Below, piece by piece: positions 30,546-63,676 of a DNA stretch of 64,000 nucleotides. The stretch is from Ruania alkalisoli (GTDB taxonomy: Bacteria > Actinomycetota > Actinomycetes > Actinomycetales > Beutenbergiaceae): assembly GCF_014960965.1 (NCBI RefSeq), contig NZ_CP063169.1, positions 467,581 to 531,580 of the forward strand. The letters are read 5' to 3'. A model generated the notes under the pieces. The model worked only from the letters and a program-made list of their open reading frames with translations. It was not told the origin of the DNA and made no database searches. Position 1 is the first letter of the stretch. Every line of letters begins with the position of its first letter. The translations under genes were made by a program, and so were the position numbers.

Positions 30546-30591
30546 GGAACGGTGTGAGAACCTGGGTGGAACCAGACGAATGGAGGACGTT

Positions 30592-41323: not shown

Positions 41324-41435
41324 ACCGGTGTCCGGCGCGGTTCCTATCCACCTGCCTGTGCCACCAGTCCTGCACTGAGTTTCGGGGGACTAGTGGCGCA
41401 GGCGGCCGAACCGAAACGAAGGTGAGCGAGCCACT

Positions 41436-42776: not shown

Positions 42777-42887
42777 CTACCAGCGCGGCGTAGAGGCTGT
42801 AAATAGATCGTAAGTTCGGGCTGTGCTGGTGATCGTCGGGGTCGACATGACGACTCCAGAAGAAGCTACCTGAGGAGGAAATGCGAG

Positions 42888-47870: not shown

Positions 47871-48977
47871 ATGACTAGTCTGAGTGATCTCGTCGAGGTT
47901 GTCATCGGGGTCGACACCCATGTCGATACCCATACCGCGGCGATCATCGATGCTGGCACCGGTGGGGTGCTCGGCCAGGTACAGGTCGCGGCCACCCCGG
48001 CGGGGTATGCCGAGCTGGTCGAGTTCGTCGATACCCACCTACGCGGTGAGGATGAGGCTGATATCGAGACCGATCCGTGCGCCGCCACTGGTGGACGGGC
48101 GTGGGCGATCGAGGGCACCCGCTCCCACGGGGCGGGTCTGACCCGACATCTACAGGCTCGTGGTGAGCTGGTCATCGAGATCGACCGCCCGCAACGGGCC
48201 AAGCGCCGCCGTGGAGCCAAGTCCGACCCGATCGACGCAGTCCGCGCCGCACGGGAAGCGTTAACCCGCGAGCACCTAGCCACCCCACGCTCAGGCGGGA
48301 ACCGGCACGCCCTCGCGATCCTGCTGAGCACCCGAGACTCCCTCGTGACCGAAGCAGGCCGCGCCGCACGGCAAGTGTTCCACCTCATCATCACCGCCCC
48401 CGAACCCCTGCGAGCGAAGTTCGCCGGCAAGAAACTGCCCGCGATGATCACCACCGCCGCCCGGCTACGCACCCGGCCCGGTCAAGACATCGAGACCACC
48501 ACCACGATCACCATCCTGCGCGACCTGGCCCGCCGCGCCCAAGACCTGACCACACAAGCGGCCCAGTACAAGAAACAGATCCACCACATCGTGACCAGCA
48601 TGCGCGCCGACCTGCTCGATCAGCCCGGCATCGGCCCCATCGTGGCCGCACGAATCCTGTGCGCCTGGTCCCACCCCGGACGCATCCACTCCGAAGCCGC
48701 ATTCGCCATGCTCGCCGGCGTCGCCCCCATCCCAGCCACCAGCGGCAGAACCACCAACCGACACCGCCTCAACCGCCACGGCGACCGCCAACTCAACCGA
48801 GCACTCCACGTCATCGTCCTGACCCGACTACGCCACGACCCACACACCCGCGCCTACGCCCAACGCCGCACCACCCAAGGCCGCACCCACCGCGAAATCA
48901 CCCGCTGCCTCAAACGCTACATAGCCCGCGACATCTACCGACAACTCGAACACCACAACCCCACAAACACCCCTTGA
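47871..48977 (+). CDS. IS110-family transposase
   Basis: This 368-residue transposase has an N-terminal RuvC-like DEDD domain (VVIGVDTHVDTHTAAIID with the first Asp, a Glu near IETDPC, and KSDPIDAVRAA with two Asp) and a C-terminal helix-hairpin-helix/Tnp20 domain. The latter includes LLDQPGIGPIVAARIL, the region with the conserved Ser (ATSGRTTNRHRLNRHGDRQLNRALHVI) and YAQRRTTQGRTHREITRCLKRYIARDIYRQL. All key positions look intact. The ATG has GGAGGAAACG upstream. It recombines DNA guided by an element-encoded RNA in studied relatives. Confidence 0.93.
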   Translation: MTSLSDLVEVVIGVDTHVDTHTAAIIDAGTGGVLGQVQVAATPAGYAELVEFVDTHLRGEDEADIETDPCAATGGRAWAIEGTRSHGAGLTRHLQARGELVIEIDRPQRAKRRRGAKSDPIDAVRAAREALTREHLATPRSGGNRHALAILLSTRDSLVTEAGRAARQVFHLIITAPEPLRAKFAGKKLPAMITTAARLRTRPGQDIETTTTITILRDLARRAQDLTTQAAQYKKQIHHIVTSMRADLLDQPGIGPIVAARILCAWSHPGRIHSEAAFAMLAGVAPIPATSGRTTNRHRLNRHGDRQLNRALHVIVLTRLRHDPHTRAYAQRRTTQGRTHREITRCLKRYIARDIYRQLEHHNPTNTP

Positions 48978-49153: not shown

Positions 49154-50695
49154 TCAAGGGGCGGTCTCCGAAAGAGGCAGCGGTGCGATCGGGCGCCCGT
49201 AGTCATCGATGTCGGCAGGGAATCGTGCAGCCGGAGTGGCATTCCACGCGTTGATGGCGGTGCCCGTCAGCCGGTCGAGCAGCAGTTGGGCATGGCGTCG
49301 CACCAGGTGGTCGTTCGCAGGATCGCCGGCCAGGTTGACCAACTCGCCAGGGTCCTCCTGGAGGTCGTAGAGCTCCGGAGCGCGACCGCCGTCGTGAAAG
49401 ATGTACTTGTACCGCTGCGTGCGCACGCATTTGCTGCGGTGTCGACGGTCGTTGGTGGTGAACTCGCACAGCGCCGACGAGCGTGGTTCAGGATCGTCGA
49501 GGCGTTCGTGGCAGTAGCCGCGCAGGCTCTGGCCCGGAAGCTCCGGAGGTGGCGCGATCCCGGCCAGGTCCAGCACCGTGGACGCCACATCGACGTGCTC
49601 GACGAGGTCGCCGACCTCGCGACCAGGTGTGCCGTGGGCACCAGAGAGCGAGGTGACCGTCAGCGGTACGCGGATGACGGACTCGATGAAGTTCGCTTTG
49701 CCGAGGGTTCCGTAGTCGCCCAGCATCTCACCGTGGTCGGTGGTCATGATGATGACAGTGTCGCGGCCGTCGTTGCGTTGCTCGGCCGCTGCGACGATGG
49801 TGGCCACCATGTCATCGATCAGAGTCATCATCCCCCAGTAGTAGGCAACGATCCGGCGAATGTTCTCGTCGCGCTCGGGTCCATCGAACTGCGGACGACG
49901 GTCTCCCACCAAGGCCGACCCGCTGACAGCATCGAACAGATCAGGCACCGGCATGGATCTGGGGTCGTACATACTCGCGTAGGGCTCGGGTGGGTCGAAC
50001 GGCGTGTGTGGACCGCAGAAGCCCACGGCGGCGAAGAACGGCCCGTCGCGCTCTCTGCTGACGTAGTCGGCCGCGTTGGCCCCGATCCAGGAGTCGATGT
50101 ACTCCTCGGCCGGGATCGGGACCGGGACGGCCGTGTCGAAGTCCGTGTACTCGGACGTGCGACGCGATTCGTAGATGCGCTCGTAGGCGCCCGGGTTGCG
50201 CTCCTCGAGCCAGTTCTCATAGACCGGGCCGAGCTGCGCCGGACCCAGTGGAGACCCCGAGGAGACCGTCCAGCGCGCTCCCTTGCCCTGCGTGAGTCGT
50301 AGCTCGTCGAATCCGCGGGGTGGGAGCAGATGGATCTTCCCGAAGGCCGCCGTGTGATAGCCATGCTGCTGGAGCCGCTCAGCGAGTGTCGTCTCGTCGG
50401 GTGGCAGACCAGGCGTGGCCTCGATGTCGCTGCGCATGTACTCCACGCCGTGCTGATGCACGTACCGCCCAGTGTTCAAGCAGGCCCGGCTCGGCATGCA
50501 CACCGGGTTCTGGATATAGGTATGGGTGAACAGCGTCCCGCGCGCGGCGAGCGCGTCGATGGCGGGCGTGCGCACATGCTCGTTGCCGGTCACGCCGAGA
50601 GTGTCGTAGCGCTGCTGGTCCGTGGTGATCAGAATCATGTTGGGTGCGTTCTCGGCGGAACGGCTGGAGTTCTGAGGTTGCTGGTCCGCTGGCAT
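49154..50695 (-). CDS. Cytoplasmic sulfatase of the ABC importer operon
   Basis: This 513-residue sulfatase has MILITTDQQRYDTLG with metal Asp residues, PVCMPSRACLNTGR with C-x-P-S-R (formylglycine Cys near residue 66), FGKIHLLPPRG, GFCGPHTPFDPPEPY and MTTDHGEMLGDYGTLGKAN. It lacks a signal peptide and follows the permease gene by 35 bases, so it should act on sulfated oligosaccharides after import. I chose the ATG at 50695, where GGAAGGG stands seven bases upstream, over a GTG at 50722. The layout is like glycosaminoglycan-active sulfatases, but the sulfate position it attacks is not visible. Confidence 0.92.
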   Translation of the reverse strand: MPADQQPQNSSRSAENAPNMILITTDQQRYDTLGVTGNEHVRTPAIDALAARGTLFTHTYIQNPVCMPSRACLNTGRYVHQHGVEYMRSDIEATPGLPPDETTLAERLQQHGYHTAAFGKIHLLPPRGFDELRLTQGKGARWTVSSGSPLGPAQLGPVYENWLEERNPGAYERIYESRRTSEYTDFDTAVPVPIPAEEYIDSWIGANAADYVSRERDGPFFAAVGFCGPHTPFDPPEPYASMYDPRSMPVPDLFDAVSGSALVGDRRPQFDGPERDENIRRIVAYYWGMMTLIDDMVATIVAAAEQRNDGRDTVIIMTTDHGEMLGDYGTLGKANFIESVIRVPLTVTSLSGAHGTPGREVGDLVEHVDVASTVLDLAGIAPPPELPGQSLRGYCHERLDDPEPRSSALCEFTTNDRRHRSKCVRTQRYKYIFHDGGRAPELYDLQEDPGELVNLAGDPANDHLVRRHAQLLLDRLTGTAINAWNATPAARFPADIDDYGRPIAPLPLSETAP

Positions 50696-50730
50696 CGGTA
50701 GCCCTTCCGTCGCTGAGCTCACAGTGGCGC

Positions 50731-51612
50731 CTACTTGAGGCCCGACATCATGACCCCGCGCACGAAGTAGCGCTGCAGCAATATGAACACGAGGAACGTG
50801 GGAATGAAGCTAATCACCGCTGCCGCCATGACCGTCGCCAGCGGCGATTGCTCCTCTTGCAGCGTGTTGAGTCCCACGGTGAGCACGTAGTTCTCGGACG
50901 ACTGCTGAGAGATCATTGGCCAGAGGAAGTCGTTCCAGTGCCAGAGGAAGACGAATGTCGCCAGGGTGGCCATGATCGGTTTCGTCTGGGGAAGGATGAT
51001 GGAGGCGTAGATCCGGAACTCGCCGGCGCCGTCGATCTTGGCGGCATCGAGGATTTCGTCCGGAATCCCGTGGATGAACTGCCGCATCAGGAACATCGCC
51101 TGAGCGTTGGCGAGGGTCGGTATGAGCATTCCCCACATGGTGTCGAGGCCACCAAGATCCCCGACGAGGATGTATTGCGGGATTATCGTCAGGTGGTAAG
51201 GGATCATCAACATCGCGATGAAGACCCAGAAAATCAGTTCGCGCCCGGCAAATTTCTTCTTGGCGAACGCGTAACCCGCCATCGAGGCGAATAGCAGGAC
51301 GAGTACGGTCGACACCACAGAATAGATGGTGGAGTTGAATGCCCAGCGTGGGATGTCGCGACTGCCCAATGCCTCATAGAAGGCATCGAGGGAGAATGCG
51401 TCCGGGAATAGCGATTCCGGCATCACGATGGCTTGGCCGGGCTGGAGGGAGATGATCACCATTGAGTAGAACGGGAATGCTGTGATCAATGCGGTGACGA
51501 TGAGCACCACATGCCGAGGGGCGAGTGTTCGTGCCTGGCGGACGAAGCGGGAACGCCGATGTTGCGAAGTGTGCGATCTGGTGGGCGTCCCACTGGTCAT
51601 GGTCTCGGTCAT
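50731..51612 (-). CDS. ABC sugar transporter permease (MalG type, CUT1)
   Basis: This 293-residue permease has six predicted membrane helices, beginning with HVVLIVTALITAFPFYSMVIISL, and the EAA loop EILDAAKIDGAGEFRIYASIILP that contacts the ATPase. It ends in the typical FVRGVMMSGLK. Its ATG shares a base with the stop of the companion permease (TGATG). No ATPase gene is present in the operon. Actinobacterial CUT1 importers usually borrow a shared MsiK-type ATPase encoded elsewhere, and that is the likely case here. Confidence 0.94.
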   Translation of the reverse strand: MTETMTSGTPTRSHTSQHRRSRFVRQARTLAPRHVVLIVTALITAFPFYSMVIISLQPGQAIVMPESLFPDAFSLDAFYEALGSRDIPRWAFNSTIYSVVSTVLVLLFASMAGYAFAKKKFAGRELIFWVFIAMLMIPYHLTIIPQYILVGDLGGLDTMWGMLIPTLANAQAMFLMRQFIHGIPDEILDAAKIDGAGEFRIYASIILPQTKPIMATLATFVFLWHWNDFLWPMISQQSSENYVLTVGLNTLQEEQSPLATVMAAAVISFIPTFLVFILLQRYFVRGVMMSGLK

Positions 51613-52547
51613 CAGTCGTTCTTTCCCACGAGTTTGCGCTGGATCAGCGAGAGGACGAGTGTGATCAGGAGGAGGACGACGCCAGCGGCGCTGGCATAGC
51701 CGAAGTCGAAGTAGCCAAAGCCCTGATCAAAGATCATAAACGTGAGGGTGTAGCTGCCACGCGCGGGACCACCGCCGGTCATGACGAAGATCGTGTCGAA
51801 GGTCTGTAGTGACTTGATTGTCTCGATCACCAGGACGAAGAATATTGCGGGCTTCAGATTGGGGAGCGTGATCTGTGTGAAACGCTGCCAGGAGTTCGCG
51901 CCGTCGATCTGGGCGGCCTCGTAGTACTCCTGCGGGATCGCCAGCATCCCGGCCAGCAGGATCAGCATGTTGTACCCGAAGCTACTCCAGACGCTCAAGA
52001 TGGCGAGCGTCGGCAGCACCCAGAATCTCTCCGTAAGCCATCCGACAGGTTCGACGCCGACAACGTCCAGCAGCGCGTTCACCGGGCCCGCCCCGGAGAA
52101 GATCCACATGAAAACCAGTGCGATCAGCACGCTGGACGTGACCGTGGGAAGGAAGAAGATCGAGCGGTAGACAGCCATCCCCCGCATCACGCGATTGCAG
52201 AGTTGGGCCATCGCGAGCGAGACGATCATCGCGAGCGGCATCTGAATCGCGGCGAAGGTGAACGTCACTCGCAGGGAGTCCCAGAAGATCGGATCCTGGA
52301 AGAGACGGACATAGTGATCGACGCCGACGAACGAGAAGGTGCGACGCAGCGTGTAGTCGCCGAAGCTCAGCACGATGCCGTAGACGGCGGGCCAGACGCG
52401 GAACAGCCCGAACAACACCACCATCGGACCGATGAAGATGTAGGCCGCGATGGCTTCCGACGATCGCCACCAGGGCTTGCGACGGTTTGGTTCGCGTGGG
52501 GGAGGGGCCGTCGATCGTTCCTGATCCGAACGGGTGAGCGTTGTCAT
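51612..52547 (-). CDS. ABC sugar transporter permease (MalF type, CUT1)
   Basis: This 311-residue permease has a basic N-terminus, then EAIAAYIFIGPMVVLFGLF as the first membrane helix. The MalF-type extracellular region is short, and the EAA loop is EYYEAAQIDGANSWQRFTQITLP. Together with the next gene it forms the channel for the ligand of the upstream lipoprotein. The ribosome binding site is GTGAGG. A hairpin stands between this gene and the binding-protein gene, probably setting a lower output for the permeases. Confidence 0.94.
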   Translation of the reverse strand: MTTLTRSDQERSTAPPPREPNRRKPWWRSSEAIAAYIFIGPMVVLFGLFRVWPAVYGIVLSFGDYTLRRTFSFVGVDHYVRLFQDPIFWDSLRVTFTFAAIQMPLAMIVSLAMAQLCNRVMRGMAVYRSIFFLPTVTSSVLIALVFMWIFSGAGPVNALLDVVGVEPVGWLTERFWVLPTLAILSVWSSFGYNMLILLAGMLAIPQEYYEAAQIDGANSWQRFTQITLPNLKPAIFFVLVIETIKSLQTFDTIFVMTGGGPARGSYTLTFMIFDQGFGYFDFGYASAAGVVLLLITLVLSLIQRKLVGKND

Positions 52548-52572
52548 GAGCGCCTCACGGAGTCTGCGCCCC

Positions 52573-52602
52573 GGGACCGGACCGGTGCTCCGATCCGGTC
52601 CC
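52573..52602 (-). terminator. Attenuating hairpin between binding-protein and permease genes
   Basis: GGGACCGGA pairs perfectly with TCCGGTCCC around a 12-base loop in the 76-bp gap. Such hairpins commonly stabilise or partly terminate the message so that more receptor than permease is made. Confidence 0.6.
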
Positions 52603-52623
52603 CAGAGACGACTAGGAGTCTGG

Positions 52624-53877
52624 TCAGAGGATGCGGTTCACTTCTTCGGCTGCCGCGTCAAGCGCTTCTTGGGGGTCAGTACCCTCCAAGAGCACGCTCT
52701 GGATATGCGGCATGACGATGTCGATGATCTCCCGAGCCGCAGGATGCTGGACAGCGGCGCGCATGTCCGGAACGTACTCGGCGCCGACCGCTAGGGCCGG
52801 GTTATCGGTGTAGAGCTGGGCGGTGTCCATGCGTGGGGAGTAGAAGCGGTTGCTTGCGGGCAGGAACTCGTCGAGGAACTCCACGTCTGTCAGGTAGCGC
52901 ACCCAGGCCTGGCTGGCCTCCGGTGCGTCGGTGGTGTTGAAGATCGACCAGCCACCCACGGTGCCCCCGATCACAGACTCGACATCCTGCATGGGTGGTG
53001 CGGTCTCAATGGCATCCTCGCCGAGGATGTCCTGAACGCTGCTCACGCTCCCGCCGCCGTTGTACGCGACGTTGCCCTGTCCGCCCTCGGACTGCTCGAA
53101 TGGCGGAATCGTGGCGAGCTCCTCGTTCGGGATCCACCCGTTGTCGGCCATCTCCTTGATGAACTCCAGAGCTCTGAGGCCTTCGGGACTGTTGAAGGTC
53201 GCCTCGGTCATGTCCTCGTTGAGAACTTCGCCACCGGCCTGCCACAAGTACTGGTAGAAGCTGGCATTCAGGTTCACCGTGCCGTAGTAGTTGGTGACGT
53301 AGTACCCGGCGTCCTGTACGGCGGGTGCGATCTCGCGCAGTTCGTCCCAGGTTGTCGGGCATTCGACGCCGACTTCGTCCATGATGGCAACGTTGCAGAA
53401 GTTCGTGGAGACGCTGACCAGTTGTGGCGCACCGTAGAGAGTCCCGTCGTAGCTCATCGCGTTCAATGCCGAGTCGTGGAACTGGTCCCAGTCGTCGCGC
53501 GTATCGTCGAGGGGCAACAACAGGTCCTCGACCGCGTACTTGGGGATGAAATCCGGATTGAAGTAGACGACGTCCGGCTCGGTGCCGCCGGAGAGGGAGG
53601 TCACAAGCGACTCCTCCCGTCCGCTGTAGGCCTGCATCTGCAGGTCGATCTCAACGTCTGGGTACTCCTCGTTGAACGCTTCGATGTGGGGCTCCCACCA
53701 GCTGGCCTCGTTGACCCCGCCGAATGGGTACGGCCAGAAGGTGACGGTGCCTGAGACCTCTTCCGGGTCGGTGGCGCCTCCGCCTGCTGGTTCGTCGCTT
53801 CCGCCGCCGCATGCGGCGACCAGTAGCAGTGCGCTTGTCGCAAGGGTGCCGGTGGCAACCGTGGCTGTGTGCCTCAT
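52624..53877 (-). CDS. Sugar-binding lipoprotein of the CUT1 importer
   Basis: This 417-residue family 1 solute-binding protein has a signal with lipobox VAAC (lipidated Cys near residue 23), a Gly/Ser linker, then VTFWPYPFGGVNEASWWEPHIEAFNEEYPDVEID and TEPDVVYFNPDFIPKY, the usual two-lobe sugar receptor. I chose the ATG at 53877, with GGAGGGACC before it. An in-frame ATG at 53928 would overlap operator D. The ligand is predicted to be an oligosaccharide from the extracellular glycan, because the same operon encodes a sulfatase and the same operator controls nagBA. Confidence 0.93.
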   Translation of the reverse strand: MRHTATVATGTLATSALLLVAACGGGSDEPAGGGATDPEEVSGTVTFWPYPFGGVNEASWWEPHIEAFNEEYPDVEIDLQMQAYSGREESLVTSLSGGTEPDVVYFNPDFIPKYAVEDLLLPLDDTRDDWDQFHDSALNAMSYDGTLYGAPQLVSVSTNFCNVAIMDEVGVECPTTWDELREIAPAVQDAGYYVTNYYGTVNLNASFYQYLWQAGGEVLNEDMTEATFNSPEGLRALEFIKEMADNGWIPNEELATIPPFEQSEGGQGNVAYNGGGSVSSVQDILGEDAIETAPPMQDVESVIGGTVGGWSIFNTTDAPEASQAWVRYLTDVEFLDEFLPASNRFYSPRMDTAQLYTDNPALAVGAEYVPDMRAAVQHPAAREIIDIVMPHIQSVLLEGTDPQEALDAAAEEVNRIL

Positions 53878-53913: not shown

Positions 53914-53927
53914 TGCAATCGGTTGCA
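53914..53927. promoter_or_regulatory. Regulon operator D (ABC importer-sulfatase operon)
   Basis: TGCAATCGGTTGCA (TGCAACCGATTGCA on the gene's strand complement) lies 36 bp before the binding-protein start, where a repressor would cover the promoter. Confidence 0.9.
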
Positions 53928-53979: not shown

Positions 53980-55431
53980 TCAATCGTGACCTTTGCCAGC
54001 CTGGTCGGCGGGAAGGGTCTGTGGTGTGGTCACGACATCTCCGGCGCGCGTCCACACGTGCAGATCCCGCACCCGCATCCGCGTCTGGTACATGAGCCGC
54101 AAGGCGATCCGCCCTGTACGCAGGATCGGGCCATAGTTCTGGTAGGAATCGTCGTGGCCTTCCACGACCCACTCGCCGTCGATGGCGCCACGCAGTCGAG
54201 CGCCCTCCTGAACGAACAGCAGGCGATGCCACTGCCCGACTTCGACCACGGGAGACGCGCTCAGCGCAAGGTTCCGCGTCCACGGATTCTTGACCAGGGT
54301 GTGAGAAGCGACGTGCTTGGGCGTCGTCGGAGTGCGCCGGAAGAAGCCCCAGTAGTAGTTGCGGAGCCGGTTCCTGTTGATCACCTGCATGGCGCCGCGT
54401 GCCAGGTCACCCGGATCGGCGAGCACATCCTCGCCCTGCATCCCGCTCGCGTGCGTCACGAGCATCCCGAACCCGCTGTCCTGCTCCATCCGGAAGTCGA
54501 ACTGGACCGCCAGATCGCCCTCGAACATCTGCGGGCTCCACAGGTACATGCGCGATTCGTCCGCGACCTCGTCCGGTGTGTGCAGCAAGAGCCCCTCGCT
54601 GGTGGTGCGCAGCTCCCTCATCTGATGCGGAGGTTGCTGGCAGCCGTGCAAGGTCCACCCGTCGATGTCGCTCGGATGGTTGAAGGAGGTCTGTAGGTCC
54701 AGACTCCAGTCGGAGTCGGGCTCCCAGTCCACACGAGGGCGAGGCTGGGGTTCGAACAATGGCCGGATCCGCTCGGCTGCCGCACGACTACGGGATGAGG
54801 CAGACGAGGCGAACTCCTCCCGTATGTCGGCTGCGGTGAGCTCACGATCGACTGCCTCGATCGAGGCGAACACCATGGCGGGATTGCCGAGGTGGAGCCG
54901 GGTGCCCGGGACGTCTGCGGTGAAGTCGAACTCGCTGATCCCGGCCAGCACCCCGTTCACCCACAGGCACATCCGCTTCTCCCGGTCGGAGAACGTCAAC
55001 ACCAGGTGGTACCAGGTGGCCGCAGTCAACGGCAGACTCTCCACCTGGGTGGAGGCCGGTAGCCGCCCAGGCTCCGGTGTGCCGTGGACCAGCTTGGCCC
55101 GCATAGCCGGCCTGATCTGTGATGTCCACAGCCAGCTGAAGACCCCGCCGGCCTCGCCCGCGGGAGTGTCGCTGACCAGTCGGTATCGCAGTGCCTCGGG
55201 GTCGTGCTCGAGGATCCAGGACAGCGGCGCCGCCACGTCCAGATCCTCCAGCGGGCACACCCACAACGAGAGCGACCACTCGGCTCCGCGCAGCAGGTCG
55301 GTCTCGAACGCGAGTTCGCTCCTGCGAGTCGTGCCGTGGAAGCCGCTACGCCCATCGATGGTGACGAAGCGGTGCGTGCCGTAGGGGCGGACATCCTCTG
55401 TGAGGTTCGCGGGACTGCTCAGGTCCACCAT
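53980..55431 (-). CDS. LamG-like plus DUF1961-like jelly-roll protein
   Basis: This 483-residue protein has two concanavalin-type beta-sandwiches. The first (about 10-215) is LamG-like: LAFETDLLRGAEWSLSLWVCP, TWYHLVLTFSDREKRMCLWVNGVLAG. The second (about 245-465) resembles DUF1961/YesU-like proteins: YLWSPQMFEGDLAVQFDFRMEQDSGFGMLVTHASG, WHRLLFVQEGARLRGAIDG, and GRIALRLMYQTRMRVRDLHVW. The same fold class includes DUF1080 enzymes that cleave 3-keto-glycosides. No signal peptide is seen, so it is cytoplasmic. It is the last gene of an operon with two Gfo/Idh oxidoreductases, which is what a keto-glycoside lyase or hydrolase would need. Enzymatic function is inference. Confidence 0.72.
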   Translation of the reverse strand: MVDLSSPANLTEDVRPYGTHRFVTIDGRSGFHGTTRRSELAFETDLLRGAEWSLSLWVCPLEDLDVAAPLSWILEHDPEALRYRLVSDTPAGEAGGVFSWLWTSQIRPAMRAKLVHGTPEPGRLPASTQVESLPLTAATWYHLVLTFSDREKRMCLWVNGVLAGISEFDFTADVPGTRLHLGNPAMVFASIEAVDRELTAADIREEFASSASSRSRAAAERIRPLFEPQPRPRVDWEPDSDWSLDLQTSFNHPSDIDGWTLHGCQQPPHQMRELRTTSEGLLLHTPDEVADESRMYLWSPQMFEGDLAVQFDFRMEQDSGFGMLVTHASGMQGEDVLADPGDLARGAMQVINRNRLRNYYWGFFRRTPTTPKHVASHTLVKNPWTRNLALSASPVVEVGQWHRLLFVQEGARLRGAIDGEWVVEGHDDSYQNYGPILRTGRIALRLMYQTRMRVRDLHVWTRAGDVVTTPQTLPADQAGKGHD

Positions 55432-55447
55432 GGGAAGGGTTCCTTTC

Positions 55448-56437
55448 TCACCAGTGGCGAGGGTCGCCGTCGTGATCGGCACTGTCCTGAGCCAGCAGGG
55501 CCACCCGCGTGGCCAGCAGGCTCTGCGCCGTCGTGATCTCCGGCTCGTGGCCGGCTGCCACCGCATCGAAGAAGTAGGCCGCCGGGCGCCTGCCCGGCGG
55601 GAGGTCCACCTGACGGCGGGGCTCGTCGTGCGTGGTGACCGTCACGGAGTCGTAGGCCCAGTCCAGCTCGGCGGTGCCGTTCGTTCCGGCCAGGCGCATC
55701 CGGTAGTGGCCGTGCACATCGGCTGCCTGCGGAGCGAGCCAGTTGGCCTCGATGGTGGCCGTGAGATCACCGGCGCGCAGCAGGACCGCGACATGGTCAT
55801 CGAATCGCGGATGGTCGTCCGCCCCGGCGTTGCCCGTGATGGCCGAGACTGTCCCCGAGGTCGCACCACTGAGCTTCAGGGCGAGGTCGATGTCATGCAC
55901 CGGAAGGTCCCCGGCGATCCCGCCATAGGTGCTGCGGTCCAGGAACCAGGCTGGGCGGCTGGGGAGGTTGAGTTTGTGCGGACCGGTGCTGGCCATCAGG
56001 GCCGGTCGCCCGAGCGTTCCATCCTCGAGCAGGTCTTGCAGGGCAAGCGTGGCCGGGTAGAACCGCTTCTCGAACACCACTGAGACGTGCCGGCGATGGG
56101 TAGCCGCGAGCTGCTCGATCTCGTCCAGCTCGTCCAGGGAGGTGCACAGCGGCTTGTCTGCCACCACATGTGCCCCCGCCTCCAGGGCCGCGATCACCGC
56201 CGCGCCGCGGCGGGAATAGACGCCCGCAACCAGTGCGACGTCGACCTGGTGGGCTGCCAGTAGCTCAGCGGGGGAGTCGTAGCGCGGTGTGTCGCCGACA
56301 TCGGACAGGTGTGCCGCCTGCATCTCGGGGTCAGGTTCAGCGACGGCGACCAGTGTGTAGTTCTCCCGCGCAGCCACCTCCTCGAGCGCGTACGAGACGT
56401 GCGGATGTGCCGCTCCCAGGATGGCGACCCGGATCAT
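55448..56437 (-). CDS. Gfo/Idh/MocA-family oxidoreductase
   Basis: This 329-residue oxidoreductase has an NAD(P) Rossmann start (MIRVAILGAAHPHVSYALEEVAA), a DKP in place of EKP (VVADKPLCTSLDE, Lys kept) and GGIAGDLPVHDIDLALKL with the catalytic His and Asp. The C-terminal sheet domain follows. Oxidation or reduction of a sugar hydroxyl is the family reaction. Its ATG overlaps the stop of another Gfo/Idh gene upstream (ATGA), and the jelly-roll gene follows 16 bases downstream. Two different oxidoreductases in tandem suggest oxidation and re-reduction at one sugar. Confidence 0.88.
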   Translation of the reverse strand: MIRVAILGAAHPHVSYALEEVAARENYTLVAVAEPDPEMQAAHLSDVGDTPRYDSPAELLAAHQVDVALVAGVYSRRGAAVIAALEAGAHVVADKPLCTSLDELDEIEQLAATHRRHVSVVFEKRFYPATLALQDLLEDGTLGRPALMASTGPHKLNLPSRPAWFLDRSTYGGIAGDLPVHDIDLALKLSGATSGTVSAITGNAGADDHPRFDDHVAVLLRAGDLTATIEANWLAPQAADVHGHYRMRLAGTNGTAELDWAYDSVTVTTHDEPRRQVDLPPGRRPAAYFFDAVAAGHEPEITTAQSLLATRVALLAQDSADHDGDPRHW

Positions 56438-57462
56438 GACGACACCTCCACCTGGGTACCGGTTTCGGCAGCCTGGTAGATCGCATCCAGCAGGTGGACA
56501 GTGCGGGCTGCCTCCGGTGCATCGATGGCGCATGGGCGCCCCTCGCGGAGTGCGGCCATCACCTCCTGCCACATGGTGACATGCCCGGCGATGCCGATGG
56601 CAGCCGGATCGGCGGATCCGCTGGTGACCGACGCCGATGAGGCGGGACGTGGGACTCCCGGAATCTCCCAGCGCAGAATCTCCCCCTGTCCGAGTTCGAC
56701 GGTGCCGCGCGAGGTGTGCAGGGTCAGGGTCGCGGCCGAGCCCGGAGGGGTGGCCGTCGAGGTGCTGATGAGGCCCAGACCGCCGGATGCGAGACGCAGG
56801 GTGGCCACGGTGGTGTCCTCGGCCGCCATGTCGTGGCCCAGGGTGGCCTGCTGCGCGGTCACGGCGTCGACCGGGCCGCACAGCCAGCGGAGCAGGTCGA
56901 CGTTATGGACGCCCTGATTCATCAGGGATCCGCCGGCGGGCATCGTGGTCCGCCAGGGGGCTGCTTGGTAGTAGTCGTCGTCGCGGCTCCAGTGGACCTG
57001 AGTGACGGCGAGCCGGATCCCACCCAGCTCGCCGGAATCGAGCAGCTGCTTGACGGCGGCGACCTCGGGCTCGAATCGCCGCTGGGCGACCATCGCGACG
57101 AGGACGTCGTGCTTGCGTGCCGCGGCCACGATGCGGTCCGCATCGGCAGCCGTGGTGGCGAGCGGCTTCTCGACCACGGCGTGCTTGCCTGCCGCGGTGG
57201 CCGCGAGCGTGAGCGAGGCGTGGGTCTGTGATGGCGTGCAGATCGCGACGACATCGACCTCCGGATGGTCGATCACCTCGTCGGCACTGCACTGGCGGGC
57301 TGACGGCCATCCGCAGTCGGACATCGTCTCCGGGTTGCCCCCGCTGTAGGTGACCAGGGTGGTGCCCGCCACGTGATGCAACGCCCGCGCGTGGGTGGTG
57401 CCGATACTGCCGGCGCCGACGATTCCGACACCGATCGCTTCTGCTGTCGTGTGTTGCCGCAT
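56434..57462 (-). CDS. Gfo/Idh/MocA-family oxidoreductase
   Basis: This 342-residue oxidoreductase has GVGIVGAGSIGTTHARAL for the cofactor, VVEKPLATTAADAD with the classical EKP Lys, and MPAGGSLMNQGVHNVDLLRWLCG with the active-site His and Asp. It is a canonical member, most like inositol- or sugar-dehydrogenase-type enzymes. It heads the minus-strand operon that continues with a second oxidoreductase and the LamG-DUF1961 protein. The start lies 32 bp from operator E, which it shares with a divergent operon of two more Gfo/Idh genes. Confidence 0.9.
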   Translation of the reverse strand: MRQHTTAEAIGVGIVGAGSIGTTHARALHHVAGTTLVTYSGGNPETMSDCGWPSARQCSADEVIDHPEVDVVAICTPSQTHASLTLAATAAGKHAVVEKPLATTAADADRIVAAARKHDVLVAMVAQRRFEPEVAAVKQLLDSGELGGIRLAVTQVHWSRDDDYYQAAPWRTTMPAGGSLMNQGVHNVDLLRWLCGPVDAVTAQQATLGHDMAAEDTTVATLRLASGGLGLISTSTATPPGSAATLTLHTSRGTVELGQGEILRWEIPGVPRPASSASVTSGSADPAAIGIAGHVTMWQEVMAALREGRPCAIDAPEAARTVHLLDAIYQAAETGTQVEVSS

Positions 57463-57493
57463 GGGCTCACCCTACGAGAGGCCGCCCTTGAAC

Positions 57494-57507
57494 TGCAACC
57501 GATTGCA
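57494..57507. promoter_or_regulatory. Regulon operator E (two divergent Gfo/Idh operons)
   Basis: TGCAACCGATTGCA sits in an 86-bp divergent spacer, 31 bp from the minus-strand start and 41 bp from the plus-strand start, so one repressor dimer could shut both promoters. Confidence 0.92.
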
Positions 57508-57548
57508 TGTCAGGATGGATCTGTTCCCTGCAACGAGAGGACCAACGC

Positions 57549-58427
57549 GTGACCGGCATCGGCTTCATCGGGACCGAGAATTCCCACACCCGGCATTTCA
57601 TCCGATTTCTCAACGAGGAGGGTAGGCATCCGGGCGTACGCGCGGTGGCGTTGGCCGACGGCCACACCGAACGGAACGCGGAGCTGGCCGAGGTGGGTGG
57701 GATCGAGACGATCGTGACCGAGCCGGCCGAGCTGATCGGTGTGGCCGATGCGGCGATCATCTCGACGCGGGACGGTGCCCGGCACCGCGAACAGGCCGAG
57801 CCACTGCTTGCCGCCGGCATGCCGGTGCTCGTGGACAAGCCGCTGGCGACCACGCCGGCGGACGCGGCCGCGATCCTGGACGCCGCCGCTGACGCCGGAG
57901 CGGTGGTGTACTCCTCGTCCGCGTTGCGGGCAGTTCCCGAGATCGCCGAGCTGATTCGCGACGGTGCGGACTCCGGCCCGCTGCGGAGCCTGCATATCGT
58001 CGGCCCCGGCGATCCGGACAGTCCCTACTCGGGCCTGTTCTTCTATGGGATCCATCATGTGGAGGCCGCGCTCGAGCTGCTCGGCAACCCTGCCGTTGCT
58101 CCCGGCGAGATAGCCGTGACCGCCCAGCGCCACGGCGACACCACGACGGCGTTACTCCGGATCGCCGACGTCGATATCACCTTGACCTTCGTCACCCCCA
58201 CCGACACCGAGCGCGTACCGTTCCACCTCACGGCGGTCCACACCAATGGGGTGGTCACCCGGCCGATCACGCTCCACCCTGACTACAACGCCCCGGCCTT
58301 GGCCACGTTCGTGGAGGCGATCTCCTCCGGGCGCTCGCCCGTGTCGCGGGAGACGATGATGGCACCGGTCATCGTGCTCAGGGCGATCGTCGATGCGCTT
58401 GAGGCGAAGCGGGAGGTGCGGTCATGA
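57549..58427 (+). CDS. Short Gfo/Idh/MocA-family oxidoreductase
   Basis: This 292-residue protein starts with ATG-less GTG at 57549 (GAGAGGA upstream); an earlier in-frame ATG lies in operator E. It has a modified cofactor loop (GIGFIGTENSHTRHFIRFL), DKP in VLVDKPLATTPADAA, and a reduced active-site helix LFFYGIHHVEAALELLG with the His kept and the Asp replaced by Glu. It is 40-50 residues shorter than the neighbours because part of the C-terminal sheet is missing. It may be a reductase partner of the next gene, whose ATG overlaps its stop. Confidence 0.85.
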   Translation: MTGIGFIGTENSHTRHFIRFLNEEGRHPGVRAVALADGHTERNAELAEVGGIETIVTEPAELIGVADAAIISTRDGARHREQAEPLLAAGMPVLVDKPLATTPADAAAILDAAADAGAVVYSSSALRAVPEIAELIRDGADSGPLRSLHIVGPGDPDSPYSGLFFYGIHHVEAALELLGNPAVAPGEIAVTAQRHGDTTTALLRIADVDITLTFVTPTDTERVPFHLTAVHTNGVVTRPITLHPDYNAPALATFVEAISSGRSPVSRETMMAPVIVLRAIVDALEAKREVRS

Positions 58428-59416
58428 CTGCCGCGCGCCTTCGGTTCGGCGTGATCGGGGTCGGGATCATCGGCCGTCAGCATGTGGATCGGATTCGTCA
58501 GGACGACATTGCGACAGAGCTGGTCGCCGTCGCAGACTCTTCGGCCGAGGCGGCGCGGGCCATCGCATCCGACTACGGAGTTGAGGCAGAGACCGTCGAC
58601 GGACTGCTGGTGCGTGAGGACGTCGACGCGGTCGTGATCGCCATCCCGTCCGGCTTGCACGCCGATGTGGCCGTTGCCGCTCTGGATGCCGGCAAGCACG
58701 TGCTGCTGGAGAAGCCCATCGACGTGACCGTCGACGCGGCCGACCGCATCATCGCTGCCGAGCGGCGCTCGGGCAAGGTGCTCAGCGTGGTCAGCCAGCG
58801 ACGGTTCCTGCCCGAGTCGGGCTACCTGCGCGAGTCGATCCGGTCCGGTGCCCTTGGTTCGATCACCTCGGCCACCGTCGAGATTGCCCTATGGCGGACA
58901 CAGGAGTACTACGACTCCGGAGCGTGGCGCGGCACCTGGGCGCTGGACGGCGGCGGTGCGCTGATGAACCAGGGCGTGCATCTGGTCGACCTGGCGCTGT
59001 GGCTCCTCGGCGACGTCGAGGAGGTGCATGCCTACGGCGGTTTGCTTGCACACGAGAACATCGAGGTGGAGGACACCATCTCGATCACCGCACGGTTCGC
59101 CGGCGGTGGCGTACTCACCTTCCTCGCGAGCACCACGGCGTATGGCGACCTGCCGATCCGGATGGCCATCATGGGCGACGGCGGCAGCGCCGTCACAGTC
59201 GCCGGGAAGATCGAACACTTCGTGACGGCGGAACAACTCGACCTTCCTGCGTTCGAGCCGAACGACATGCAATGTGCGCAGCTCCTCGACTTCCTCGGGG
59301 CAATCGAGAACGCTCGTGATCCCCTGGTCACCTCGACCCAGGCGCGAGCCGCAGTCGCCTTCATCGAGGCGGCGTATGAGTCGATGCGCAGCGGGAAGCC
59401 GGTGCAGCCACGATGA
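58424..59416 (+). CDS. Gfo/Idh/MocA-family oxidoreductase
   Basis: This 330-residue oxidoreductase is a textbook member: FGVIGVGIIGRQHVDRI for NAD(P), VLLEKPIDVTVDAADRII with the EKP Lys, QRRFLPESGYL, and LDGGGALMNQGVHLVDLALWLLG with active-site His and Asp. It is close in layout to the 56434-57462 protein and may be its paralogue. The ATG overlaps the preceding stop (ATGA), and its own stop overlaps the start of a GDSL-type hydrolase gene, so three genes are translated as a coupled set under operator E. Confidence 0.9.
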   Translation: MTAARLRFGVIGVGIIGRQHVDRIRQDDIATELVAVADSSAEAARAIASDYGVEAETVDGLLVREDVDAVVIAIPSGLHADVAVAALDAGKHVLLEKPIDVTVDAADRIIAAERRSGKVLSVVSQRRFLPESGYLRESIRSGALGSITSATVEIALWRTQEYYDSGAWRGTWALDGGGALMNQGVHLVDLALWLLGDVEEVHAYGGLLAHENIEVEDTISITARFAGGGVLTFLASTTAYGDLPIRMAIMGDGGSAVTVAGKIEHFVTAEQLDLPAFEPNDMQCAQLLDFLGAIENARDPLVTSTQARAAVAFIEAAYESMRSGKPVQPR

Positions 59417-60078
59417 CCCAGGCAGCGGTGACCCCAGCGCTGCGTGAGGTTCTCGACTCGCCTGACCCGCGGGTGTGGACCTTCCTGGGTGACAGTGTGA
59501 CGGCGGCCAGCTGGCACACCTGGGGAAGTCGAGGGTTCTCGGAACTGGTCGAAGAACGGTTGCGGGAGCAGGGGCGTTCGCGGGACGCGGTGATCAATAC
59601 GGCCGTCTCGGGGTGGCAGATCTCCGACCTGGAGCCAGAGCTGGAGGCGCTGTGCCTACGGTTCGCACCGGACGCCGTCGTGATCGGTTTCGGCCTCAAT
59701 GACACGAGGGGAGGTGCCGACGGGGTCCAGACGTTCGGCCGGGTCTACCGGGAGGTCATCCGGCGTATCCGCGAGGCGAGCGGCGCCGTCGTGGTGGTGA
59801 TGACACCGAACGGGACGTTGCCGACGGCACCGGCGCATGTGGTGGAACACCTGCCCGCCTACGTCGAGGAGGTGCGGGCCGTGGCAGCCGACACGTCGGC
59901 CCTGCTCGTCGACCACTATGCCGAGTGGCAGCAGGCCGAGGAAGGGTCCTGGTTCCACTGGCTCGGGCACGGGTGTCACCCGAACATCTACGGGCATCGC
60001 GTCATGGCTCGTACGTTGATGCGTGCGCTGGGGATCTGGGACCCGGAATCCAGGAGTGGGCGGCTCTTGATCCCGTGA
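59413..60078 (+). CDS. SGNH/GDSL-family hydrolase
   Basis: This 221-residue esterase-type protein has block I TFLGDSVTAASW with the Ser nucleophile, block III IGFGLNDTRGG with Asn, and block V HWLGHGCHPNIYGHRVMA with the catalytic His; the Asp lies three residues before it in most relatives but here the position is Gly-His-Gly-Cys, so the triad may be a dyad. It has no signal peptide. A sugar O- or N-deacetylase on imported oligosaccharides is plausible. It ends the operon, with a hairpin immediately after the stop. Confidence 0.85.
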   Translation: MTQAAVTPALREVLDSPDPRVWTFLGDSVTAASWHTWGSRGFSELVEERLREQGRSRDAVINTAVSGWQISDLEPELEALCLRFAPDAVVIGFGLNDTRGGADGVQTFGRVYREVIRRIREASGAVVVVMTPNGTLPTAPAHVVEHLPAYVEEVRAVAADTSALLVDHYAEWQQAEEGSWFHWLGHGCHPNIYGHRVMARTLMRALGIWDPESRSGRLLIP

Positions 60079-60163: not shown

Positions 60164-61168
60164 TCAGCCGAGCCGATCGTAGTTCTCGGATGTCACCTCA
60201 GCGCGGAGGGTGCCCTCCCGCAGGAAACTCTCAACCTCGCTGACGACGGTCGCGCCTTGGGCGAACCGGGCCTGCACGGTGCCGCCGGCGACGTGCGGGG
60301 TCAGGATCGCATTGTCCAAGCCGAAGAACGGGCTGTCCGAGGGGAGCGGTTCGGTGGTGAACACGTCGAGGCCCACCTTGAGGCGACCAGCCTTCACTTC
60401 GGCGAGTAGCGCCTCCTCGTCGGTCACCTGGGCCCGCGCGGTGTTGATGACGATCGCACCGTCCGGGAGTAGGGCGAGCTGTTCGGCGCCGAGCATTCCG
60501 GCCGTCTTGGCCGTGACGGGAGCATGGATCGAGAGAACTTCGCTCGTTGCGCACAGCTCTTCCAGGTCGCACAGCTCGACGCCGAGCTGGCGTGCGTCGT
60601 CGGTCGAGCAGTACGGGTCGTAGGCGCGCACGGAGGTGGCGCCGAGCCCCTGGACCATCGAGGCGTAGTGCCGGCCGACGCGGCTGAGGGAAACGATGCC
60701 GATGTGCTGTGCGGCGATGCTCTGGCCCAGCGTGCCCTGGCCACCCTCGTGCCAGTCGCGGGTGCGCTGAAACGCCCGGTCATGCCACACGAGATTGCGC
60801 AGATGGGCCAGGGTCATGGTGAGCGCCATCTCGGCCACCGGCAGCGCCATCGCATCGGCACCGCCCTGCGCCAGGCGAAGCTGGCCGCCCAGGCACTCCG
60901 CGGGGAACAGGTTGCGCACCGATCCGGCGCTGTGCACCGCCAGGCGCAGTCGTGAACCCGCCAGGACGGCCGGGTCGAAGGGCTCGGTGCTCCACGAGGT
61001 GAGCAGCACATCGAACGAGTCGCCGATGTCCGCGGGGACGGCTACCTTCCCGTCGGCTTCCATGCCGAAGACGACCTCCCCGAGGCGGTGGAGCTTCGCC
61101 TGGGTCTGCTCGTCGTAGAGGCGGGCGAACTGGTCCGTGGTGATCGCGACGAAGATGCGGGCGGTCAT
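60164..61168 (-). CDS. D-isomer-specific 2-hydroxyacid dehydrogenase-family protein
   Basis: This 334-residue NAD-dependent enzyme has the family's cofactor region in altered form (IGIVSLSRVGRHYASMVQGLG, Ser where Gly is usual), then INTARAQVTDEEALLAEVKAGRLKVGLDVFTTEPLP with the Arg/Glu part of the active site and ILTPHVAGG with the catalytic His. It could reduce a 2-keto acid or oxidise a sugar acid. I chose the ATG at 61168 (AGGAG upstream); a longer frame would run through operator F. It is divergent from the AGE-type epimerase gene and shares its operator. Confidence 0.88.
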   Translation of the reverse strand: MTARIFVAITTDQFARLYDEQTQAKLHRLGEVVFGMEADGKVAVPADIGDSFDVLLTSWSTEPFDPAVLAGSRLRLAVHSAGSVRNLFPAECLGGQLRLAQGGADAMALPVAEMALTMTLAHLRNLVWHDRAFQRTRDWHEGGQGTLGQSIAAQHIGIVSLSRVGRHYASMVQGLGATSVRAYDPYCSTDDARQLGVELCDLEELCATSEVLSIHAPVTAKTAGMLGAEQLALLPDGAIVINTARAQVTDEEALLAEVKAGRLKVGLDVFTTEPLPSDSPFFGLDNAILTPHVAGGTVQARFAQGATVVSEVESFLREGTLRAEVTSENYDRLG

Positions 61169-61214
61169 GATGCTCCTGTTCTCGAAGTCGGTCAACATGA
61201 CTATCGCACATGTC

Positions 61215-61228
61215 TGCAATCGGTTGCA
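61215..61228. promoter_or_regulatory. Regulon operator F (hydroxyacid dehydrogenase / AGE epimerase)
   Basis: TGCAATCGGTTGCA (TGCAACCGATTGCA on the other strand) lies in the divergent spacer, 33 bp from the epimerase ATG and 46 bp from the dehydrogenase ATG. A TACGAT -10 box follows at 61248-61253, so the operator covers the -35 region on that side. Confidence 0.9.
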
Positions 61229-61261: not shown

Positions 61262-62554
61262 ATGACGACCCTCGAGAGCGCCGCCGCCGACGCACGTGAC
61301 CAGCTGGAGCGGGTGGTGCTGCCGTTCTGGCTGACGCACGGGATCGACCACGAGCACGGGGGCTTCCACACGTGTTTCGACAACCGTGGCCGCTCGCAGG
61401 TCTCAGATGAGAAGTTCACGTGGTCGCAGGGTCGATTCGTCTGGATGCTGGCGCGGGCTGCTTCCCTGACCGGCGCTGGACTGCTGCGTCCAGTTGAGGG
61501 CTTCGACGCTGACGCGTTGATGGTGTGCGCCAACCGTGGCGCCGACTTCCTCGAGGAGTACGCCCTTCGCCCCGACGGCACCTGCTCGTTCGCGCTGGTG
61601 CGCGACGGATCCGCAGAAGCGGCGGGCCACCCCGCGAGAAGCGTCTATGCCGATCTGTTCGTCGCCATGGGATTCGCGGAGATCGCGCGGCAGGGCGGGC
61701 CGCAGCGGTGGCTGGAACCGGCGCGCCTCATCATCGACCGGGCCCGGGCGGACATCCACCAGCGGGTCGCGCCCACACCGCCGTACACGATTCCGGAGGG
61801 GCACCGAGCCTTCGGGCCCCACCTGATCCTCCTGAATGCACTCCTCGTCCTGAGTCAGGCTGAGCGGAGTCTGGAAATCCCGATCTCGCGCCAGGAGGCG
61901 CTCGCCTCCGAACTGGATGCAGTGATGTCATTTCACGACGGCGGACATGGCTTCCGGGAGATGCCTCCGTTGGGGAGGGCTCACTCTGGCGACCCCGGCG
62001 AGGGTTCGGCTGGCCCGTCCGGTTCGGGCCTGGTCGCTACGCATCGCGTACCGGGCCACGCGCTGGAAGCGATGTGGATCGCCCTCGAGGCGATGGATCT
62101 GCTCGGCGATGTGACACATCGGGAGACCGCCCTGGCGAGCATCGCCCCACTGTGCGAACTCGGATGGGATGGCGAGTGTGGCGGGCTGTTCCGGTACGTC
62201 GACGAGGCCGGCGGCCCGCCCACCGGTGCGGCCGGGACGAGCGATTACGAACGTCTGGTGCAGGCCACCTGGGACACCAGGTTGTGGTGGGTGCACACCG
62301 AAGCGGCCGCCGTCGCCGCCACGGCGGCCTGGCGGTACGACCGCCCGGAGGTCGCGGCGTGGTTCGACCGGATCTGGCACTACACCCTGAACACGTTCCC
62401 CGGCGGGGATGAGGGTGAGGAGTGGGTGCAGATCCGCAACCGGGACGGGTCGCCGCGCGATGCGGTGGTCGCACTGCCGGTGAAGGATCCGTTCCACATC
62501 ACGCGCAACCTGATGCAACTGGTCGAGCTCGCAGCCGCGCGCGCCGGCCGCTGA
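61262..62554 (+). CDS. AGE-family (N-acylglucosamine 2-epimerase-like) protein
   Basis: This 430-residue (alpha/alpha)6-barrel protein belongs to the AGE superfamily. It shows VVLPFWLTHGIDHEHGGFHTCFD, KFTWSQGRFVWMLARAA, HRVPGHALEAMWIALEAMDL with the conserved His, and TRLWWVHTEAAAVAATAAW with another His, plus FHITRNLMQL at the end. Epimerisation at C2 of GlcNAc or of an unsubstituted sugar, or aldose-ketose isomerisation, is known in the family. In a regulon with nagA and nagB, ManNAc/GlcNAc interconversion would fit. A TACGAT box only eight bases before the ATG suggests a very short leader. Confidence 0.88.
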   Translation: MTTLESAAADARDQLERVVLPFWLTHGIDHEHGGFHTCFDNRGRSQVSDEKFTWSQGRFVWMLARAASLTGAGLLRPVEGFDADALMVCANRGADFLEEYALRPDGTCSFALVRDGSAEAAGHPARSVYADLFVAMGFAEIARQGGPQRWLEPARLIIDRARADIHQRVAPTPPYTIPEGHRAFGPHLILLNALLVLSQAERSLEIPISRQEALASELDAVMSFHDGGHGFREMPPLGRAHSGDPGEGSAGPSGSGLVATHRVPGHALEAMWIALEAMDLLGDVTHRETALASIAPLCELGWDGECGGLFRYVDEAGGPPTGAAGTSDYERLVQATWDTRLWWVHTEAAAVAATAAWRYDRPEVAAWFDRIWHYTLNTFPGGDEGEEWVQIRNRDGSPRDAVVALPVKDPFHITRNLMQLVELAAARAGR

Positions 62555-62701: not shown

Positions 62702-63676
62702 ATGGCGAGCAGAAATGAGCACCTGAACCCGCATGACGCGATGTTCCGCGCGGTGGTGGGTGTGCCGGCGAATGCGGCGTCGGTGCTGGCCTCGGTGCTT
62801 CCCGCGGAGGTCGCGGGCGGGTTTGACCTGGGAGGTCTACGTCCCGAGCCGGGAAGTTTTGTCGATGCGGAGATGCGCCAGCGGCACACAGACCTCCTGT
62901 TCAGTACCCACCTGAACGGGAAGCCGGCGCTGGTGTATGTGCTCGTGGAGCACCAGGCCAGCTCAGATCGGTGGATGGCGTTGCGCGTGCTGGAGTACGT
63001 CACGCGGATCTGTGACCGGTACCGCGCCCAGCATTCCCGTGAGCGAACCTTGCCGGCGGTGCTGCCGGTGGTCGTCTATCAGGGACGGCGCCGATGGAAT
63101 GCGCCCACCAGGCTGGAGGCACTGTACGACGTTGACGCCAAGCAGGCGCTGGGCGAGTTTCTGCCCCGGCATCAGTTCGTGTTGCAGGACTTGACGGGAG
63201 TGGAGGTGGAGGCGTTGCTGGCAGCACCGTTGACTCCGGCGGCCCGGTTGGCGTTGGCGATGCTGCGGTTCGCACCTGATCAGCAGCACCTGGCACAGGT
63301 GCTGGATCAGTTCATCGATGACCTGCTGATCCTGATCGGCAAGCACCCAGCGGATCGGATGTTCGCGACTATCATGGAGTACGCCTACCAGGTCAGCGAT
63401 ACGAACCCGGAAGAGTTGCAGACGTTCTTCCACGATCTCGGACCCCAGGCACAGGAGGCCTATATGTCCAACACACTTGAACGAGGCGTCGCACAGGGCG
63501 TCGCCAAGGGGCGCGCGGAGGGCGCAGCAGCCATGCTCACCCGTGTGCTGGCTGCTCAGTTCGGTGCCCTCACCCCCGAGCAGTCCGCCCGCATCCAGGC
63601 GGCGACACCCGACCAACTCGACGCCTGGGTCGACCGCTTCACCGACGCCACCAGCATCGACGACGTCCTCCGCTGA
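62702..63676 (+). CDS. Rpn-family recombination-promoting nuclease (PD-(D/E)XK)
   Basis: This 324-residue protein matches the Rpn/transposase_31 family. NPHDAMFRAVVG is the N-cap, RQRHTDLLFSTHLNGKPALVYVLVEHQAS carries the nuclease Asp and E-x-Q motif, LPAVLPVVVYQGRRRWNAP follows, and the C-terminal tail has a Gly-rich repeat (RGVAQGVAKGRAEGAA). Relatives cut DNA and raise recombination in E. coli. It is not part of the sugar regulon; it sits between that regulon and an IS110 copy and may have come with mobile DNA. Catalytic positions look intact. Confidence 0.85.
   Translation: MASRNEHLNPHDAMFRAVVGVPANAASVLASVLPAEVAGGFDLGGLRPEPGSFVDAEMRQRHTDLLFSTHLNGKPALVYVLVEHQASSDRWMALRVLEYVTRICDRYRAQHSRERTLPAVLPVVVYQGRRRWNAPTRLEALYDVDAKQALGEFLPRHQFVLQDLTGVEVEALLAAPLTPAARLALAMLRFAPDQQHLAQVLDQFIDDLLILIGKHPADRMFATIMEYAYQVSDTNPEELQTFFHDLGPQAQEAYMSNTLERGVAQGVAKGRAEGAAAMLTRVLAAQFGALTPEQSARIQAATPDQLDAWVDRFTDATSIDDVLR

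Follow-up and report, generated by a model that had tools for sequence, protein, structure and literature searches.

Genes and operators of the locus

Within the 4.45 Mb genome of Ruania alkalisoli we analyzed a stretch of 64,000 nucleotides (contig NZ_CP063169.1, positions 467,581 to 531,580; hereafter the window) that carries four genes for Gfo/Idh/MocA oxidoreductases (Gfo1 to Gfo4) together with genes for a LamG-DUF1961 jelly-roll protein (JR) and a GDSL-type hydrolase. These genes and their divergent promoter had been noticed in a sequence-only reading of the DNA, and Pfam cut-offs and the sequence bear that observation out; the divergent gap carries a LacI-type operator. The closest named relative found was Ruania rhizosphaerae, with a JR 94% identical. 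The features are:

53980-55431 (-): JR, LamG + DUF1961 (YesU-like) protein, assigned by Pfam, PDB match and structure comparison; no evident signal peptide; accessory
55448-56437 (-): Gfo1, divergent Gfo/Idh oxidoreductase; PF01408 above cut-off, Lys-Pro and DxxxH motifs kept
56434-57462 (-): Gfo2, WlbA/DgpA-like oxidoreductase; PF01408 above cut-off, Lys-Pro and NxxxH kept in 9 orthologs
57494-57507: operator, found in the Gfo2-Gfo3 gap in 7 of 10 genomes; the remaining 3 have the two pairs at separate places
57549-58427 (+): Gfo3, short divergent Gfo/Idh oxidoreductase; PF01408 above cut-off
58424-59416 (+): Gfo4, WlbA/DgpA/glucuronide-3-dehydrogenase-like oxidoreductase; PF01408 above cut-off
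59413-60078 (+): GDSL-type hydrolase; Lipase_GDSL_2 above cut-off; in 5 of 9 relatives

Gfo2-Gfo1-JR are transcribed leftward and Gfo3-Gfo4-GDSL hydrolase rightward, both from the gap with the palindrome TGCAACCGATTGCA, and JR, 16 bases from Gfo1, forms a single operon with Gfo2-Gfo1. Judging from the sequence, the start of Gfo3 is probably the GTG at 57549 rather than the ATG at 57507, a codon that overlaps the operator. A profile search found 38 PF01408 matches genome-wide, and only 12 of 200,000 random placements were as tight as the four matches inside 2.4 kb; the four-Gfo cluster is therefore not due to chance.

The strict operator, TGCAAYCGRTTGCA, has six sites in the genome, five of them in the window, with none for a control pattern. 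When up to one mismatch is allowed, TGCAANNNNTTGCA has six sites in the window, all six exact, where shuffles lead one to expect 0.52. The sixth genomic operator adjoins a tRNA-modification (mnmA-like) gene, so named from its sequence, and is probably a chance occurrence. The operator likely belongs to the LacI-family regulator encoded in the window. From their positions, the operators mark NagB-NagA, the NmrA-like and aldolase genes with Gfo5, the DUF4127-hydrolase-LacI operon with the beta-propeller genes, the ATP-binding cassette (ABC) importer, the four Gfo genes, and the 2-hydroxyacid dehydrogenase and N-acylglucosamine 2-epimerase (AGE) genes. Further features are given below, with their occurrence in nine relatives whose choice is described in the next section:

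26393-27445 (-): NagA-type amidohydrolase; NagA-like in at least 3 of 9 relatives
27442-28227 (-): NagB-like deaminase; NagB-like in 9 of 9
28242-28255: one-base operator variant TGCAAGCGGTTGCA before NagB
28310-30399 (-): NmrA-like NAD-binding protein and DHDPS-type aldolase; each in 2 of 9
30532-30545: operator between the NAD-epimerase-like/aldolase genes and Gfo5
30580-31611 (+): Gfo5, lacking both the Lys-Pro and the His motif found in Gfo1-4; 3 of 9
31630-32643 (-): LacI-family regulator; 9 of 9
32659-33570 (-): alpha/beta hydrolase; 7 of 9
33582-35060 (-): DUF4127 protein, 371 bits; 4 of 9
35209-35222: operator in the gap between the DUF4127 operon and the beta-propeller genes
within 35276-46676 (+): three large beta-propeller proteins; relatives in 7 of 9 related regulons
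41436-42776 (+): enolase-superfamily protein; 7 of 9, 44-79% identity
49154-50722 (-): sulfatase following the importer and next to an IS110 element; outside the conserved regulon
50731-53877 (-): sugar ABC importer, made up of two permeases and a binding protein (52624-53877); orthologous importer in 6 of 9
53914-53927: operator preceding the importer
60164-61219 (-): D-2-hydroxyacid dehydrogenase-like gene, open reading frame as listed with an uncertain start; 7 of 9
61215-61228: operator in the gap between the 2-hydroxyacid dehydrogenase and AGE genes
61262-62554 (+): AGE family gene; 7 of 9

Gfo5, the AGE-type epimerase and the DHDPS-type aldolase, which the sequence-only reading had placed elsewhere in the regulon, are real and lie beside operators. 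Its statement that a classical glycosidase is lacking holds for the operator-marked genes of the window, among which domain scans detected none, but not for the window as a whole, as GH42 and GH78 glycosidases are encoded outside those genes. No literature naming DUF4127 was found.

The beta-propeller proteins give few clues to their activity. The model of the first (mean predicted local distance difference test score, pLDDT, 79.9) has propeller folds, a beta-rich tail and a CBM_4_9 domain, and the third protein ends with an LPETG-like wall anchor. The hits of a profile search against the PDB were confined to designed and sensor propellers and to proteins of the PQQ type. By structure, the model resembles propellers with seven blades, among them virginiamycin B lyase at Z 29.5, which is tied with YncE and WD40 proteins, and therefore no function follows. 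On these results, identity as polysaccharide lyases was set aside; no such lyase is among the best 50 structure matches, a result that excludes nothing.

Conservation and proposed role of the four oxidoreductases

When 297 genomes of the order were searched with Gfo3, 13 matched at E 1e-20 or better, ten of them in the same family (R. alkalisoli included), and stretches fetched from the nine other family genomes were compared with the proteins of the window. As these relatives were selected by Gfo3, its presence in them is by construction; Gfo1 and Gfo2 were found in all nine and Gfo4 in eight. The operator was also found in all nine, and there are 0 operators in G688 and G660, the two genomes tested of the same family without a Gfo3 match. 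The core of the regulon is the four Gfo/Idh enzymes, conserved together with the operator. Of the unmatched genes near the relatives' operators, 20 were scanned, and none of these 20 encodes a glycosidase; among their products are a glucuronyl-esterase-like protein, FAD oxidases, PhoX phosphatases and transporters.

Gfo1 to Gfo4 belong to the Gfo/Idh/MocA family both by their PF01408 scores and by the Lys-Pro and xxxH motifs, which are kept in every ortholog compared (eight or nine each). We take these motifs to have their customary meaning, the lysine presumably being catalytic. Gfo5 is above the PF01408 cut-off and has neither motif, which suggests it may not be a normal dehydrogenase. The top PDB matches of Gfo2 and Gfo4 are 3q2k and 3q2i, which we take to be WlbA-type 3-dehydrogenases, with DgpA further down for both. 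Gfo4 also matches a glucuronide-3-dehydrogenase (8tdi), and its block QEYYD...WRGTW...MNQ..H.VDL aligns with 3q2k/3q2i. Given this resemblance to sugar 3-dehydrogenases, we infer that C3 oxidation is the likeliest chemistry of one member of each Gfo pair, and the partner could reduce the product. WlbA itself acts on a UDP-sugar in biosynthesis, whereas the setting of Gfo2 and Gfo4 is catabolic. Membership in more narrowly defined groups was rejected, as NCBIfam cut-offs were not reached: the BT_2158/BT_2159 models (cut-offs 750/650) score 19-37 bits with Gfo1, Gfo2, Gfo4 and Gfo5 and have no reported match to Gfo3, and IolG membership fails likewise.

We consider it about an even chance that these genes form a regulon under LacI control for the catabolism of an oligosaccharide that contains an amino sugar, with the two Gfo/Idh pairs as its redox core and JR as an accessory. 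Uptake and breakdown of an amino-sugar glycan is probably the role of the regulon in R. alkalisoli and its relatives. Outside the cell, the large beta-propeller proteins, whose N-termini suggest secretion, would act on or bind the glycan, and the fragments would be taken up by the ABC importer. Inside the cell, the pairs Gfo1+Gfo2 and Gfo3+Gfo4 would oxidize and re-reduce sugar carbons, most likely C3, in directions that are assigned here only provisionally, and this redox route may lead to bond cleavage or to epimerization of a residue. The AGE-, NagA- and NagB-type enzymes would then pass the amino sugar to glycolysis. JR would be a cytoplasmic YesU-like accessory handler of glycans in one branch of the genus rather than an essential eliminase.

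Several points weigh against this proposal. The catabolic chemistry is read from sequences and models, and the relatives were selected by a match to one of the enzymes in question. In G702 and G804, missing regulon genes may reflect which stretches were fetched. The PDB relatives of Gfo1 and Gfo3 are uncharacterized or weak only. For Gfo2 and Gfo4, inositol 2-dehydrogenase is also among the PDB matches, and their top NCBIfam model is the inositol 2-dehydrogenase TIGR04380 (131 and 140 bits, cut-off 355). Lastly, the stretches fetched from G702, G804 and G903 contain GH42 genes (75-76%) at a distance of some kilobases from an operator, and so classical hydrolysis may take place there.

As to the substrate, a sulfated amino-sugar glycan had been suggested from the sequence. 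The amino-sugar part agrees with the amino-sugar genes of the regulon. A sulfated substrate was rejected, because it rests on the single sulfatase gene at 49154-50722, for which the stretches fetched from the nine relatives contain no match, although three of the 13 DUF1961 loci surveyed elsewhere (see below) do have a sulfatase. Among the matches listed for a literature search on Ruania, polysaccharide and sulfatase, there was nothing on such a system.

Possible cleavage of the glycosidic bond

The 3-keto eliminases known so far belong either to the DUF1080 proteins or to TIM barrels that resemble sugar isomerases (PMC7676230, PMC8563793, PMC10628242). The genome encodes 17 TIM-barrel proteins of PF01261; seven of their genes have a Gfo gene within 2 kb, and none of the 17 lies in the window. 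None was among the matches listed (165 exist) at the core loci of the nine relatives either. The PF06439 (DUF1080) matches in the genome are one distant gene and JR only. Accordingly, neither known type of eliminase was found alongside the Gfo genes in the window, and the glycosidic bond could be cut by the Gfo enzymes themselves, by another conserved protein, or outside the regulon.

The levoglucosan pathway, LgdA-LgdB1-LgdB2-LgdC, is similar in having Gfo/Idh-type oxidation and reduction next to an adjoining sugar ABC importer (PMC7676230), but the enzymes it uses for elimination and hydration resemble sugar isomerases, and the Ruania window has no PF01261 gene. Elimination through 3-keto intermediates has been described for levoglucosan in Paenarthrobacter (PMC10066097) and for C-glycosides in Microbacterium and Arthrobacter (PMC8563793), and the sequence-only reading was therefore too wide in regarding the combination as undescribed in an actinobacterium. 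Oxidation-elimination pathways are already known in actinobacteria, and the regulon is a variant of known sugar catabolism by Gfo/Idh enzymes. To our knowledge, redox-assisted glycoside cleavage is little charted beyond gut bacteria and a few small substrates. With its four-Gfo core, its mapped operator and relatives that differ in accessory genes, the regulon makes the question of bond cleavage directly testable.

Some NAD-dependent glycosidases are known, namely GH4, GH109 and GH188, and it is conceivable, if unlikely, that the Gfo/Idh enzymes are of this kind, with a single active site performing oxidation, elimination, hydration and reduction, in which case a separate eliminase would not be needed. 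The lack of PF01261 genes in the window and among the matches listed at the relatives' core loci, in a genome where seven such genes lie close to other Gfo genes, is consistent with this, as are matches of Gfo1 and Gfo3 to 8qc2/8qc3, which we take to be sulfoquinovosidase-type Gfo/Idh enzymes. However, the latter matches are weak (4.6e-11, 7.3e-6) with partial coverage of the proteins, no Pfam or NCBIfam glycosidase model of such a kind is matched, and four enzymes in two pairs would equally suit oxidation plus reduction. In a bolder version, which we regard as rather unlikely, the four Gfo/Idh enzymes would be the whole intracellular cleavage machine, redox-assisted glycosidases of new families working as two pairs on an amino-sugar (perhaps uronate-containing) oligosaccharide, with JR as an add-on. 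If true, cleavage would proceed without a classical glycosidase and without any additional eliminase of the TIM-barrel or DUF1080 type.

It also seems rather improbable that the substrates of the Gfo enzymes are free sugars or cyclitols (inositol, inosamine, or a rare amino sugar to be epimerized), with ordinary hydrolysis carried out beforehand by an enzyme from outside the regulon. The inositol-2-dehydrogenase similarity of Gfo2 and Gfo4, the GH42 genes near the regulon in three relatives and the presence of NagA, NagB and AGE, which suit monosaccharides, would fit. Yet no Gfo reaches the NCBIfam inositol cut-offs, the scanned regulon genes include no inositol catabolic gene set, and the importer family is presumably of the sugar/oligosaccharide type.

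The LamG-DUF1961 protein and neighboring genes

JR matches Laminin_G_3 at residues 46-182 (32.3 bits) and DUF1961 at residues 248-459 (65.1 bits, cut-off 25). The closest solved protein is YesU (phmmer 7e-11). In the JR model, where the DUF1961 domain is good and the LamG half poor (mean pLDDT 54.8), the match to YesU (1oq1) extends over 213 residues with Z 25.7; JR is thus a member of DUF1961/YesU (PF09224) by both score and fold. It differs from YesU in its additional LamG half and in its diverged DUF1961 domain, which scores 65 bits against about 278-342 bits for canonical members in genome searches. YesU of Bacillus subtilis is reported to bind Lewis-type fucosylated glycans, without a claim of enzyme activity (PMC6120924). 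A literature search on DUF1961 returned only fungal effector work.

The sequence-only reading had cast JR as a DUF1080-like eliminase, its DUF1961 domain cleaving 3-keto-glycosides formed by Gfo enzymes and another Gfo reducing the product. The Bacteroides 3-keto-glycoside pathway (BT2157-BT2160) likewise has several Gfo/Idh enzymes and a concanavalin-fold protein in one operon. JR also shares its operon with Gfo2-Gfo1, seems to be cytoplasmic, and as a whole protein reaches 27.6 bits with PF06439 (DUF1080, 3keto-disac_hyd; cut-off 26.8), though it falls below the cut-off, at 21.8 bits, in a genome search. The Bacteroides protein, however, is DUF1080 whereas JR is DUF1961 and dispensable across genomes, and the Gfo scores against the Bacteroides models are low, as noted above. 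DUF1080 has been implicated in lactose use (PMC9007349).

After YesU, the next structures matching the model are ERGIC-53, CBM66 and legume lectins with Z near 16, and 4jqt (BT3469), which we take to be a DUF1080 structure, is level with the lectins and CBM66 at Z 15.6. In profile comparison, DUF1961 is matched with 98% probability and a set of 20 actinobacterial DUF1080 domains with 11.8% over 30 columns; the signature blocks of those domains, GYEIQID and QNHG, are absent from JR. All 15 DUF1961 members scanned match DUF1961 and only two match PF06439. Given the structure ranking, the profile comparison and this low rate, filing JR under DUF1080 was rejected, and DUF1961 domains should not be taken as DUF1080 enzymes without proof.

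Orthologs of JR occur in three of the ten core-bearing genomes by genome-wide search (its own, plus G739 and G674 at 71-94% identity), and other DUF1961 genes in these ten are 22-29% identical to it. In G817, where Gfo1 is 93% identical (Gfo1/Gfo2 91-93%), Gfo1 adjoins the importer with no JR in between. JR is therefore an addition in one branch, and its role as an essential partner was rejected. What fits best is an accessory role in glycan binding or handling, although JR could also be an enzyme; JR as an eliminase is unlikely on present evidence, and the cleavage scheme built on it is very doubtful. The 3-keto-glycoside-like pathway of the sequence-only reading is partly supported, by the conserved redox core, the nearness of Gfo2 and Gfo4 to 3-dehydrogenases, the amino-sugar genes and the lack of a classical glycosidase among the operator-marked genes of the window, but not in its eliminase.

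DUF1961 genes elsewhere were also surveyed. Across 13 loci, counted without a background control, an ABC permease was found in the fetched stretch at 11, a Gfo match at 6, GH42 at 4 and a sulfatase at 3 (L026, L032, L036); L039 was excluded since only its LamG half matched, and L022 and L058, on the same contig (327,212 bases), were counted once. The six Gfo loci would favor an eliminase, as would L026 in G217, from another family of the class, where a canonical DUF1961 gene is accompanied by sulfatases, an alginate-lyase-family gene and three Gfo genes, one of them Gfo3-like. G019 has a propeller relative and a sulfatase beside a DUF1961 gene. In G847, where a genome search found no DUF1961 match, a Gfo3-like gene and a second Gfo gene occur together with an importer and with genes related to those for the NmrA-like protein, the aldolase and the 2-hydroxyacid dehydrogenase.

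Other genes in and near the window were noted in passing. The IS110-type transposase at 47787-48977 has near-identical copies (99.7%) just past the window (L025), which, together with the neighboring sulfatase missing in relatives, suggests a recent rearrangement. An Rpn/YhgA-like transposase-nuclease gene (62702-63676) adjoins the AGE gene and is also found in G739 and G817. Four further sulfatase-like genes, along with another gene of the PecL2-like type, lie upstream of the window (L024:1-15601). A separate cluster at 16458-25474 encodes a sulfatase, LacI, GH42, aldo-keto reductase, short-chain dehydrogenase/reductase, FAH-type and enolase-type proteins, and presumably resembles an oxidative fucose-type pathway.

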